Assembly (NCBI GenBank): GCA_934593275.1
Contig: CAKTQE010000066.1
Coordinates: forward strand, 1-10,843
Direction of reading: 5' to 3'
From: an uncultured Oscillospiraceae bacterium
GTDB taxonomy: Bacteria; Bacillota; Clostridia; Oscillospirales; Oscillospiraceae
Length of the DNA: 10,843 bases
The notes below the pieces were generated by a model. That model was not told where the DNA came from. It did no database searches and saw only the letters and a list, made by a program, of their open reading frames with translations. Made by a program: the position numbers and the translations under genes. Shown here in pieces: positions 620 through 7,983 of the stretch. Every line of letters starts with the position of its first letter. Position 1 is the stretch's first letter.

Positions 620-907
620 CTATCTCCACTCCATCGATAAATCTTTCCAATCTGGGTTGTTTTGCTGGACCAGTTTGATCTTTTTCTCCCTGCGCCAGTT
701 TTTTATCTGTTTTTCTCGTTCGATTGCAGTCCGAACATCGGTAGTCACTTCATAATATACCAATTTGTCTACAGAATACTTACTGGTAAAACTTGGTACA
801 ATATGGTTTCTATGTTCATACAATCTGCGTTCCAAATTACTTGTTACACCAACATACAACACACTGTCACACCAGTTTGAAAGGATGTAAACATAGTAGC
901 TGTTCAT
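620..907 (-). CDS. Small GIY-YIG nuclease-family protein (UPF0213-like)
   Basis: This 95-residue protein consists of a single GIY-YIG domain. The first motif is YYVYI at residues 4-8 and the second is YVG at 18-20. The helix that follows carries arginines 27-28 and His32, and the conserved block AIEREKQIKNW at 61-71 supplies the family glutamate, Glu63. The length matches stand-alone UPF0213/YhbQ-type members, which are predicted nucleases of poorly defined function. The ATG at 905-907 is preceded by AAGGTGAG (913-920), and the gene ends in TAG. It is flanked on both sides by copies of the 123-bp palindromic element (407-529 to the left, 1011-1051 and 1155-1277 to the right). That suggests it may travel with, or act on, those repeats, which is inference only. 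No DNA-binding or transposase domain is fused to it. The family assignment is firm; the role is unknown. Confidence 0.9.
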   Translation of the reverse strand: MNSYYVYILSNWCDSVLYVGVTSNLERRLYEHRNHIVPSFTSKYSVDKLVYYEVTTDVRTAIEREKQIKNWRREKKIKLVQQNNPDWKDLSMEWR

Positions 908-1411: not shown

Positions 1412-2200
1412 TTACACAAACAACCCCAAATACGCCTCCAGGATGGGTTCTCCGAACAGGAGGGTGCATATGGCAGCGGCGGTAATGGCTGGACCCCAGG
1501 GGAAGAGGGGGGTGTTGGTGCGGCGGGTGGCGAGGAGGCCAAAGAGGATGCCAAGGATGCAGGCGGCGAAGAGGCACAGGAGGTTCCCTTTCCAGCCAAG
1601 GTAGAGTCCTGTGAGGAACAGGAGTTTGATGTCGCCGCCGCCCATGGCTTCTACGTTGCGGAGTTTTTCGTAGAGCAGCACCAGGGCCAGTAGACCCCCG
1701 GCTACCAGGAAGCCGCCCAGGAGGCTATCGAGCCAGAGGGATGCAGGGGCCTTTTGCAAAAGCAGGAACACCGGACGCAGCGCGAGTCCCAAAAGGATGC
1801 ACCGGTCCGGGATCATATACCCCTCCAAATCCGCGAAAGCGCAGGTCAGCAGGATGCTGGAAAGAAAAGCGTATTCAAGGGTTTGGAGCGAAATATCATA
1901 TTTCATCAGGAGGGCCACAAAGACCGCCGCCGTGGAGAGTTCCGCCAACAGGTGGGCGGGGGAGAGTTTTTTCCCGCAGTAGCGGCATTTTCCATGGGTT
2001 GCCAGAAAGCTCACCACAGGAATCAAGTCCCGGGGGGCCAAAACATGGCCGCAAGTGTCACAATGGGAGCGGCCTTTCAGCACCGATTCCCCATGCACCA
2101 GCCGCCAGGCCAGACAATTGAGAAACGAGCCAACACACAGCCCCAGAACCACCGCAAGGGTGATGCAGTAGGCGGTAATATAGGGGGTGGAATAAAGCAT
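1412..2200 (-). CDS. pilD: Prepilin peptidase / N-methyltransferase (A24 aspartic protease, PilD family)
   Basis: This polytopic membrane aspartic protease removes prepilin leader peptides and N-methylates the new N-terminus. The 262-residue product has the family layout. An N-terminal membrane helix (about 8-30) is followed by a cytoplasmic zinc-type tetracysteine loop (Cys47, Cys50, Cys72, Cys75). The two catalytic aspartates lie in DLEGYMIPD (Asp124) and GGGDIK (Asp190), and further hydrophobic helices run to the C-terminus. I chose the ATG at 2198-2200 because AAAGGAG (2209-2215) sits 8 nt upstream. The reading frame is open to 2254, but that extension merely translates a heptamer repeat. 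It is the last pilus gene of the locus, separated from the prepilin gene by 703 bp of repeats, so its expression may be uncoupled from pilBTC. Confidence 0.95.
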   Translation of the reverse strand: MLYSTPYITAYCITLAVVLGLCVGSFLNCLAWRLVHGESVLKGRSHCDTCGHVLAPRDLIPVVSFLATHGKCRYCGKKLSPAHLLAELSTAAVFVALLMKYDISLQTLEYAFLSSILLTCAFADLEGYMIPDRCILLGLALRPVFLLLQKAPASLWLDSLLGGFLVAGGLLALVLLYEKLRNVEAMGGGDIKLLFLTGLYLGWKGNLLCLFAACILGILFGLLATRRTNTPLFPWGPAITAAAICTLLFGEPILEAYLGLFV

Positions 2201-2224
2201 GGGGGCGGCTCCTTTCGATTGGAA

Positions 2225-2256
2225 AATTGACAATTGACAATTGACAATTGACAATT
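2225..2256. repeat. Heptamer tandem repeat (AATTGAC), about 4.6 copies
   Basis: The plus strand reads AATTGAC four times and then AATT, starting 25 bp upstream of the pilD start codon. Each unit contains TTGACA on the plus strand and TTGTCA on the minus strand, which resemble a -35 box, but I find no suitably spaced -10 on either strand. Heptamer arrays of this kind recur between genes in Clostridia and may change copy number by slippage. Confidence 0.9.
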
Positions 2257-2274
2257 ATTTGGGGGTCGGGTGGT

Positions 2275-2298
2275 TTTCGCATTTTTCGAAATGCGAAA
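2275..2298. repeat. Perfect 10-bp inverted repeat with TTCG/CGAA tetraloop
   Basis: TTTCGCATTT (2275-2284) pairs perfectly with AAATGCGAAA (2289-2298) across a 4-nt loop. No T-run follows on either strand, so it is not a standard intrinsic terminator. It lies upstream of pilD. It could be an operator dyad, an RNA-stabilising hairpin, or part of the local repeat family. I see no other signal in 2299-2360. Confidence 0.75.
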
Positions 2299-2360
2299 CG
2301 GTGATAGATGCGTTAAATATGCGGTAATACGGAACAAATGTATCGTAGGGTATTCAACCT

Positions 2361-2400
2361 GTGGGGGTGAATGGTATGACCCGATATACGGTACCCCCAC
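2361..2400. repeat. Inverted repeat adjoining the structured repeat array
   Basis: GTGGGGGT (2361-2368) pairs with ACCCCCAC (2393-2400) around a 24-nt loop. It abuts the first copy of the 122-bp structured repeat at 2402. It may be a decayed neighbour of the same repeat family. Confidence 0.6.
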
Positions 2401-2401
2401 T

Positions 2402-2822
2402 GTAGCGGCGGCAATCTGCCGCCAACCGGCCGCAAGGCCGGAACCGTGGTACGTTCGTATCCGTATCGACCCACGGGGCCAGCCCCTGGCGGGGCTGGAT
2501 GGCGTTGGGTCAACGCCGCTACATTGCGTGTACCGTTGTACGTAACGGGTGTAGCGGCGGCAATCTGCCGCCAACCGGCCGCAAGGCCGGAATCGTGGTA
2601 CGTTTGTATCCGCATCGACTCACGGGGCCAGCCCCTGGCGGGGCTGGAGTGGCGATGAATCATCGCCGCTACATTGCGTGTACCGTTGTACGTAACGGGT
2701 GTAGCGGCGGCAATCTGCCGCCATCCGGCCCGGAGGGCCGGAACCGTGGTACGTTTGTATCCGCATCGACCCACGGGGCCAGCCCCTGGCGGGGCTGGAT
2801 GGCGTTGGGTCAACGCCGCTAC
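2402..2822. repeat. Three-copy array of a 121/122-bp multi-hairpin repeat (copies at 2402-2522, 2551-2672, 2701-2822)
   Basis: Each copy begins GTAGC and ends GCTAC, which form a closing stem. Between them five hairpins tile almost without gaps. In copy 1 they are GGCGGCA/TGCCGCC (2407-2423), CCGGCC/GGCCGG (2426-2441), CCGTGG/CCACGG (2444-2476), CCAGCCCC/GGGGCTGG (2479-2498) and GGCGTTG/CAACGCC (2501-2517). The copies are separated by a conserved 28-bp linker that contains CCGTT/AACGG. Differences between copies largely preserve pairing. The array lies between the prepilin and pilD genes, and no protein-coding gene is credible within it. It could be a mobile palindromic repeat or a structured RNA. 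I do not recognise a named family. Confidence 0.9.
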
Positions 2823-2856
2823 ATTGGGTGGTTCTAAGTGGTAAGGTTCCTCAAAG

Positions 2857-2880
2857 CGGGGCCGCAACCCGTCGGCCCCG
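2857..2880. repeat. GC-rich hairpin downstream of the prepilin gene
   Basis: CGGGGCCG (2857-2864) pairs with CGGCCCCG (2873-2880) around an 8-nt loop, starting 23 bp beyond the prepilin stop codon. On the minus strand it is followed by CTTTGAGG rather than a run of T, so it is at best a weak terminator. It could instead be a 3'-end-stabilising hairpin for the pilBTC-prepilin transcript. Confidence 0.5.
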
Positions 2881-2903
2881 GAGGAGGTTTGGATGGGAGA
2901 ATT

Positions 2904-3341
2904 TTAGCCGCCAGTAGCAGGAGCCACAGGCTCTATTTTAACAATCGCCTTATCATCAGCCTTGCTGGTAACTTTGTATGTAACGGTAGACTTCTCTCCC
3001 CATGTGCCAACCACCTGGCCAGCAATTTCAAGTTTATCATTCGTTTGCTTACCAACGCACTCATAGGGATTAGCACTTTCTGCTTGCTTAGCCACACTGC
3101 CATCTTTCTGCAAAACATATACTTCATTTTCTGCAGGAACCTTACCTTCCTCCGCAGTCAGGAGTGTCGCCATAAAGGAAGCATAGCCGGAGCGGATATT
3201 GGCCTCGTCGGTGGCGACTCTGGCCTTGTTCAGGGAAGCTGTAAAGGTAGGAATCGCAATCGCCACCAACACAGCGATGATGGCCACAACGATCAGCATT
3301 TCCATCAGGGTGAAGCCCTTGGAATTTTTCATCTTGCGCAT
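2904..3341 (-). CDS. Type IV prepilin (class III signal, PilA-like)
   Basis: This is probably the major structural subunit of the pilus. The 145-residue precursor starts with a short basic leader ending in Lys8-Gly9, followed by the processing site G/FTLME. Phe10 would become the methylated first residue, and Glu14 is the conserved Glu5 of the mature pilin. A hydrophobic helix of about 20 residues follows (15-35), then a small polar globular domain and a C-terminal PATGG. Mature length is about 136 residues. There is only one cysteine (in NPYECVG), so the intramolecular disulphide loop of many Gram-negative pilins is absent. The ATG at 3339-3341 has GGGAG (3353-3357) 11 nt upstream. It follows pilC by 98 bp and precedes the repeat array. 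It could be a minor pilin, but it is the only pilin here. Confidence 0.93.
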   Translation of the reverse strand: MRKMKNSKGFTLMEMLIVVAIIAVLVAIAIPTFTASLNKARVATDEANIRSGYASFMATLLTAEEGKVPAENEVYVLQKDGSVAKQAESANPYECVGKQTNDKLEIAGQVVGTWGEKSTVTYKVTSKADDKAIVKIEPVAPATGG

Positions 3342-3356
3342 AGTATTTCGTTCTCC

Positions 3357-3372
3357 CTTCTTTTTTAAGAAG
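3357..3372 (-). promoter_or_regulatory. Small hairpin abutting the prepilin ribosome binding site
   Basis: On the minus strand CTTCTT and AAGAAG form a 6-bp stem with an AAAA loop. The right arm runs directly into, and overlaps by three bases, the AAGGGAG ribosome binding site. The stem is A/U-rich and weak. It could stabilise a processed 5' end of the pilin mRNA or modulate initiation, but it may be chance. Confidence 0.35.
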
Positions 3373-3439
3373 TTTTCTTTATTTTATGTATTCACCAGAC
3401 CGGGTTGAGCGTCCGGCGGATAACATCGAAAAAATTGAA

Positions 3440-4651
3440 TCAAACAATACTGCCGTACATGGTAAACATGGGCAAGTACACGCCTAAAAGCAGCAGCACC
3501 GTGACAATGGCCAGGCCGATGGTGATGCACGGCTCTAAAATGGACAGGAGCCGCTCGGTTGCCAGGGAGACCTCGTTATTGAAGTAATCCCCGACCACGG
3601 TGAGGGTTTTTTCCATATTGCCGGACTGCTCCCCTACCCCGGTCATTTCCGTTAAGAGTTTGGGGAAATAGGGGCTTTGGGCCATGCTCTCGGAAAGGCC
3701 TTTGCCCATTTCCACATTCTGCCGGGCCTTGCGGATGGCCTGGGAGACCATGCCGTTGCCAATGACGTTGGCGGTAACATCCAGGGCTTTCACCAGGGGC
3801 AGACCCGCCGTGACCATGGTGGCCATGGTGGAGGAGAACTGGGCGGCGGCGTTCATCATATGGAGCTTGTGAAAGGGGGACCAGGTGAGCTTGTTTTTAT
3901 CCAGCCAGGCCCTGCCCCGGGGATTCCGTTTGATTAAAATCCGGGCCGTGACCAGGGCCAGGGCGATAAGAGCCAGGACCCACCAGCGGGTGATCATAAA
4001 GTCCGACACCGCCATCATGGCCTTGGTAATGGCGGGCAGCTCCACGCCCAACTCCGCAAAGGTGGAGGTAAAGGCGGGGACGGCCTTTACCATAACGATG
4101 ATAAAGACGATGATGGCCACGATGATGACCATAATGGGATAGGTCAAGGCACTGGCCACCTTGGCTTTGACCTTGGCGGATTTGTCAAAATAGGTATAGA
4201 GCTTGCCAAAACAGGTTTCCAGGGTGCCGGATTCCTCACCGGCCCGAACCGTTTCCACAAAGGTGGGGGGCAGGCCCGGGCAATGGGTCTCAAAACTCTG
4301 GGCCAGGGAGTAGCCGCCGGAAACGTCCTCCGCAACCAGGCGCAGCTTTTCCCGGAGATGCTTGTCCGCCGACTGCTCGGCCACCATTTCCACACACCGG
4401 ACGATGGGGAGGCCGGAAGTCAGAATGATGGAAAACTGGGAACACATCATGGCCAGGTCTTTTTCTTTAATTTTATGGGTGCCGATTTCCCGGGTCAGGA
4501 TGCTTTTCTGCTCCTTGACGGGGGCAATGGCAGTGATCACGGCGCAGGTAGAGCGCAGCTGGGTCACTGCCTCATACTCATTGTAAGCCTTGACCACGCC
4601 GGAGACCTTTTGCCCCTCCAGGGTCAAGCCACGGTATTTAAAGGTCGTCAA
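3440..4651 (-). CDS. pilC: Type IV pilus inner-membrane platform protein (GspF/PilC family)
   Basis: This integral membrane protein couples the cytoplasmic PilB and PilT motors to pilin insertion and extraction. The 403-residue length is typical of the family. It has two T2SSF domains, at about 68-190 and 268-393. Each contains the paired signatures of the family: TSGLPIV with GEESGTLE in the first, and TAGLPLV with GEQSGNME in the second. Membrane segments lie at about 170-192, 222-240 and 375-396. The start codon is TTG (4649-4651), supported by GAGGTGA (4659-4665) 7 nt upstream; there is no nearby ATG in a good context. It lies 32 bp downstream of pilT, in the same operon. A short N-terminal region (1-60) precedes the first domain, as in other PilC proteins. 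Confidence 0.95.
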   Translation of the reverse strand: MTTFKYRGLTLEGQKVSGVVKAYNEYEAVTQLRSTCAVITAIAPVKEQKSILTREIGTHKIKEKDLAMMCSQFSIILTSGLPIVRCVEMVAEQSADKHLREKLRLVAEDVSGGYSLAQSFETHCPGLPPTFVETVRAGEESGTLETCFGKLYTYFDKSAKVKAKVASALTYPIMVIIVAIIVFIIVMVKAVPAFTSTFAELGVELPAITKAMMAVSDFMITRWWVLALIALALVTARILIKRNPRGRAWLDKNKLTWSPFHKLHMMNAAAQFSSTMATMVTAGLPLVKALDVTANVIGNGMVSQAIRKARQNVEMGKGLSESMAQSPYFPKLLTEMTGVGEQSGNMEKTLTVVGDYFNNEVSLATERLLSILEPCITIGLAIVTVLLLLGVYLPMFTMYGSIV

Positions 4652-7776: not shown

Positions 7777-7872
7777 CGTAGGGGTGGTGCTTCGCGCAGC
7801 GAATCAAAAACAATTGATTGCCGGGGGCAATCATTATATATTGATTCGCTGCGCGGAGCAACCACCCCTACG
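7777..7872. repeat. 96-bp long-palindrome element (MITE-like)
   Basis: The left arm begins CGTAGGGGTGGT (7777) and the right arm ends ACCACCCCTACG (7872). The arms are about 31 bp and differ by one bulged base and one G/T-type mismatch; both include CGCGCAGCGAATCAA or its complement. Inside, GATTGCC (7816-7822) pairs with GGCAATC (7826-7832) over a GGG loop, so the whole element folds into one long hairpin. It differs in sequence from both other repeat families here. It lies between the EF-G-like gene terminator and the pilB promoter. The rest of the gene-free interval 7442-8019 shows only the promoter and terminator listed separately. Confidence 0.85.
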
Positions 7873-7983
7873 ATACATTTGTTACGAATCACCATATTTT
7901 CAACGTATCTATTGTCTTTTTGTGCCTATAAAATGTGGAAAACGTGGTGTGTTGCCATTCCTGCATTTGGAATGCCGTGATGT

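Follow-up and report, generated by a model that had tools for sequence, protein, structure and literature searches.

REPINs are doublets of REP sequences that form hairpins (PMC3116915). In Pseudomonas fluorescens, the available parts of the original report (Bertels and Rainey 2011, PMC3116915) describe inverted REP doublets with a spacer, which form hairpins in single-stranded DNA or mRNA and have RAYT genes nearby; they occur in tandem clusters that include their flanks, and compensatory changes are called common. The GTAG-REP head-head dimers of Di Nocera et al. (2013, PMC3733652) carry GTAG outermost on opposed hairpin units with spacers of 20-100 bp, some of them containing stem-loops, and likewise form tandem clusters with flanking DNA; some lie inside palindromes. 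The sections available of that paper mention at most two stem-loops per spacer and name Proteobacteria, Cyanobacteria, Chloroflexi and PVC as host phyla, with Firmicutes absent from the names. In E. coli, a REP and an inverted REP with a linker form tandem BIMEs, the REPs being imperfect palindromes with a bulge, and the action of TnpA-REP on single-stranded REP requires GTAG (available sections of PMC8266576). Clostridia are named for the IS200 subclass in the accessible portion of PMC6006769. The titles and abstracts of the open-licence literature searched held no report of REPINs or RAYTs in Firmicutes or Clostridia.

The window, that is, the whole stretch of 10,843 nucleotides analysed here, contains one three-copy array and one further GTAG...CTAC palindrome. 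With a probability that we put at about 0.83, the array is a tandem run of three REPINs (BIME-like head-head dimers of GTAG-tagged REP palindromes) that spread via a RAYT and whose spacer is unusually structured. It is most likely a known kind of element in a host group, the gut-type Clostridia, for which that literature gave no such report, and would thus extend to them REPIN/RAYT systems that the sources available describe mainly from Proteobacteria. The array and its parts are as follows.

2402-2522, unstranded: REPIN copy 1, 121 nt, GTAGC/GCTAC closing stem and five hairpins
2402-2406/2518-2522: closing stem of copy 1
2407-2423: hairpin 1 of copy 1, GTAG-tagged end
2426-2441: hairpin 2 of copy 1
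2444-2476: hairpin 3 of copy 1
2479-2498: hairpin 4 of copy 1
2501-2517: hairpin 5 of copy 1, inverted GTAG-tagged end
2551-2672, unstranded: REPIN copy 2, 122 nt, fifth hairpin altered
2701-2822, unstranded: REPIN copy 3, 122 nt, second hairpin longer
2523-2550, unstranded: linker 1, 28 nt, identical in sequence to linker 2
2673-2700, unstranded: linker 2, 28 nt, identical in sequence to linker 1
2388-2401, unstranded: left flank of copy 1, forming an imperfect inverted repeat with 2523-2536

Each unit consists of GTAG plus a hairpin, a 77/78-nt spacer made of three hairpins, and an inverted hairpin plus CTAC. In all three copies, each end carries a GC-rich hairpin with GTAG at its foot, the two in opposite orientation, so that two hairpins with perfect 7-bp stems face each other. 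Judged on the window's own letters, this is the anatomy by which REPINs are defined. The array differs from the P. fluorescens REPINs in hairpin sequence, in host phylum and in its spacer of three contiguous hairpins, and no RAYT is among the annotated ORFs of the window. The three spacer hairpins also exceed the number given for GTAG-REP dimers, whereas the palindromic context of some of those dimers recalls the flanks of copy 1, in which 9 of the 12 nearest bases (2388-2401 against 2523-2536) are complementary. The perfect stems contrast with the bulged REPs of E. coli.

Folding each copy on both strands bore out the architecture proposed by an earlier, sequence-only reading, namely three copies each with five hairpins inside a closing stem and 0-3 nt between neighbours; the longer second hairpin of copy 3 was also present. 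As plus-strand RNA, copies 1-3 had minimum free energies of -73.8, -70.4 and -77.9 kcal/mol (z of -5.7, -5.5 and -5.4), and none of 200 shuffles folded equally well; the plus-strand centroid of copy 3 was a different fold with a long hairpin. The minus strand gave z of -6.4, -6.0 and -7.0, the third hairpin of copy 2 taking a different fold there, and single-stranded DNA parameters gave -6.2, -5.8 and -5.9, with the closing stem contained in the minimum-energy structure of copy 3 only. Since both strands fold far better than shuffled sequence, folding of the array is not strand-specific, and the proposal that pairing is kept specifically in the plus strand gains no support, the other strand folding at least as well.

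A branched structured RNA, transcribed in either direction relative to the pilus operon, with selection acting on its multi-hairpin fold, would account for the strong folding of all three copies and for the one compensatory pair between them. We consider it very unlikely, because the minus strand folds at least as well, because no Rfam 15 covariance model matched anywhere in the window up to E=1, and because of the covariation itself. In a three-row alignment, 131 of 132 pair cells were standard (the one unpaired cell being in copy 1); in hairpin 5 of copy 2 one pair changed on both sides, from U-A to A-U, and three pairs changed on one side (U-G, G-U and G-U), but all covariation measures were equalled by 160 of 500 shuffles. 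The compensatory change noted in hairpin 5 is real as a difference, without excess over chance; counting the loop, it amounts to four substitutions across nine bases, and a single event might have produced it. Selection on structure is not readable from the three window copies alone: their covariation is too thin and the wobble changes too few, and relatives are therefore needed to decide. The case also counsels caution, in that strong folding of a repeat together with pairing-preserving changes can come from a mobile DNA palindrome and need not point to an RNA.

Relatives of the window's PilC in genome_contigs reached about 42% identity, five of them from MAGs whose titles read Clostridia, Clostridiales, Ruminococcaceae or Oscillospiraceae bacterium; public contigs also carry PilC proteins of 92-95% identity. 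We compared 394 genomes from the order of one such MAG; the nearest by the EF-G-like protein were G116, G273 and G360 (83-85%), and the genus of G273 supplied a set of 121 genomes. DNA searches with the array or copy 1 gave short partial matches in two of five genomes, in three of the 394 (at most two candidates scored per genome) and in none of 61; the partial matches in one genome, G002 (L009, L012), are GTAG...CTAC elements with other spacers. The end hairpin was then sought in the 121 genomes as GTAGSGGCGGC-N5-GCCGCC with at most one mismatch, the reversed pattern serving as control. It was found in 75 of them, many with one or two matches, which is the control level, whereas G427, G486, G446 and G402 had 229, 176, 42 and 36 matches (112/117, 87/89, 16/26 and 16/20 per strand) against 0-3 reversed-pattern matches (0-2 per strand). 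Dispersed, mostly extragenic copies occur in these four relatives. The nearest genomes, G116, G273 and G360, had 0, 2 and 0 matches against 1, 3 and 1 in the control. A distant-mode search of phages and plasmids gave no match, and a 23-mer was absent from viral contigs. As a separate observation, the general hairpin pattern occurs in at least 120 viral-contig stretches (IMG/VR loci L058-L137), with up to 11 matches per stretch among those listed.

Many of the relatives' hairpins are paired face to face, in two-hairpin forms of 48-49 nt (L036, L038, L041, L054) and in larger elements of 72-145 nt; additional hairpins occur within some spacers, the 138-nt element of L037 being an example. For other hairpins, a CTAC partner of the kind searched for was absent within 260 nt. 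Most relatives have GTAGG at the ends and the window has GTAGC. A covariance model built from the three window copies (stricter filters, at most 29 candidates scored per genome) scored those copies at 142-146 bits and found 12 places in 7 of the 121 genomes, the best at 36.9 bits. No five-hairpin copy like the window's was among these places; the nine that were located are dimers with GTAG/GCAG at one end and CTAC/CTGC at the other, and several match on both strands. One of the places (G493:C94:20701-20808) lies about 530 nt upstream of a RAYT gene that holds hairpins of the window's GGCAATCTGCC kind inside.

We drew 113 distinct dimers from DNA chosen largely for its hairpins, and 100 of them had spacers of at least 25 nt; the median z of these 100 spacers was -0.2, with 13 below -2 and 8 below -3. 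The window spacers (-3.0, -3.2 and -3.6) are among the more structured ones, as a structured RNA would predict, but the free variation of spacers among relatives speaks against that explanation. Most spacers of relatives fold no better than shuffled sequence, and those with several hairpins are in the minority; because relatives keep the ends while their spacers are mostly unstructured, it is the ends that define the element class. The search pattern put no constraint on the fifth pair of the end hairpin. Among 128 distinct contexts in 22 genomes, which are not independent within one genome, this pair was Watson-Crick in 127 (TA 92, AT 17, CG 12, GC 6) and G-T in one. The end hairpin thus keeps structure rather than sequence, and the suggestion that structure is what selection maintains, undecidable from the array, finds support at this position in the relatives. 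In a 306-nt locus of G486 (L253, 8514-8819), the spacer of one dimer, of the GTAGGGGCGG type, encloses another of the GTAGGGGAGG type; nesting of this kind is a possible route to multi-hairpin spacers.

The dimers' surroundings bear on their mode of insertion. On 20-kb pieces of G427 and G486, of which ORFs of at least 150 aa cover 87%, 37 of 49 dimers lie mostly outside such ORFs. None of 112 dimers in relatives was flanked by direct repeats of at least 4 nt, so no target duplication was seen, and the flanks tend instead toward inverted repeats (mean 4.79 of 12 positions complementary, against 3.79 for shuffled pairings, with a maximum of 4.38 in 500). A MITE of a DDE-type transposon would share with these elements the terminal inverted repeats of about 10 bp (TGTAGCGGCG) and the dispersal of the dimers, but given the missing direct repeats, the lean of the flanks toward inverted ones and the presence of the hairpins at RAYT genes, it is highly improbable.

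PF01797 matched in 70 of the 121 genomes, mixing IS200-like with divergent proteins, and a profile built from 11 of the local divergent proteins matched in 71. An H-x-H motif and a tyrosine close to the C-terminus are conserved across their alignment; on this basis, together with PF01797 and the flanking hairpins rather than a RAYT-specific model, we class them as predicted RAYTs (HUH/Y1 transposases). GTAG hairpins lay within 150 nt or inside at 43 of 60 RAYT loci inspected in 50 genomes (upstream at 21, downstream at 27, on both sides at 17; inside the domain at 27) and were absent altogether at 17. Hairpin feet reading GTAG numbered 50 in 19.1 kb of RAYT flank against 5 in 63.7 kb farther away.

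Two RAYT-flanking hairpin types were counted, and found in 34 and 29 of the 121 genomes. The first reached at least 24 copies in 7/7 genomes whose inspected RAYT carries it, against 10/114 others (Fisher P 3e-7), and the second at least 11 copies in 4/4 carriers against 11/117 others (Fisher P 2e-4), both thresholds having been set post hoc from the counts and a subset of RAYTs having been inspected. Copy number therefore goes with the hairpin type at the RAYT for both types, with exceptions, some type-rich genomes having an inspected RAYT with another hairpin type or none. G427, the hairpin-richest genome, has one RAYT, with a hairpin of its abundant kind (GTAGGGGCGGCTATCAGCCGCCC) 131 nt upstream. 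An indication from PF01797 that this genome has no Y1 transposase was overturned by the local profile, which found this one. Neither PF01797 nor the local profile found a RAYT in G486, despite its 176 matches, or in the nearest genomes G116, G273 and G360. The many hairpin types and RAYTs of these gut-type Clostridia form natural pairs for testing hairpin recognition by HUH enzymes.

Because related genomes combine GTAG-hairpin ends with RAYT genes, the DNA palindrome fits, and of the two alternatives first put forward, a branched RNA and a protein-recognised DNA palindrome, the data favour the second; a plus-strand RNA gains no support from Rfam, minus-strand folding or the spacers. The anatomy of the window array, the like-built elements in relatives and the association of these with RAYTs were observed directly. 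From the relatives and the work on TnpA-REP, we infer that a RAYT encoded elsewhere in the genome would bind and cut the GTAG-hairpin in single-stranded DNA and so bring about its spread, and that by this analogy a RAYT moved the window copies. Since the linkers are identical, the element probably inserted once, between the pilin and prepilin-peptidase genes, and was then amplified in tandem together with its flank. If the array is indeed a run of REPINs, the host RAYT is expected to be flanked by, or to contain, GTAGCGGCGGCAATCTGCCGCC.

Twenty-seven of the 60 RAYT genes have GTAG hairpins within the matched domain itself (45 in 27.9 kb, against 14 in 97.1 kb beyond 350 nt; examples are L262, L264, L268, L269, L274, L332, L333, L342, L345 and L351). 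Counted from the beginning of the domain, 19 of 22 plus-strand hairpins start at 108-120 nt and 21 of 23 minus-strand hairpins at 280-340, with both strands represented in 14 genes; the hairpins encode inserts such as VGAATCRP. The parts of the REPIN/RAYT literature covered make no mention of such internal hairpins. As a tentative and rather doubtful extension, a Clostridia RAYT-REPIN lineage may carry GTAG hairpins at two fixed in-frame sites of many transposase genes. The HUH core would then be the spacer within a large REPIN, and the enzyme might act on the gene or message that encodes it; the array in the window would derive from such a system, its spacer having filled with hairpins that are perhaps left over from nested insertions.

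The array sits between a prepilin peptidase gene (1412-2254, minus strand) and a type IV pilin gene (2904-3341, minus strand), adjoined by PilC-, PilT- and PilB-like genes. Whatever its origin, and compatibly with its being a run of REPINs, it might now act in the pilus operon message, stabilising the upstream pilin mRNA or serving as an attenuator before the prepilin peptidase gene. This is conceivable though on balance unlikely: the genes on either side share one strand, and REPs have been hypothesised in mRNA stabilisation and termination (available sections of PMC3733652), but no terminator-like site lies inside the array. Terminators and promoters at 2100-3500 were at chance level only, the three terminator-like sites found being on the plus strand within the pilin gene, against 1.9 in shuffles. 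The array might affect the expression of pilin or of the prepilin peptidase.

The second GTAG...CTAC palindrome, at 7778-7871 (GTAGGGGTGGT...ACCACCCCTAC), folds as one long hairpin (7777-7870, -67 kcal/mol), and the stretch flanking it on the right (7866-7943) forms a 71% inverted repeat with 2273-2350, which lies to the left of the array. The window also holds three copies of a repeat of about 300 nt (22-547 and 995-1294), for which, with its GIY-YIG gene, the open-licence literature offered nothing relevant. Its arms are GTCATTCCGA/TCGGAATGAC, and the copies surround a small GIY-YIG nuclease gene (620-907, minus strand), perhaps as another repeat with an enzyme partner.
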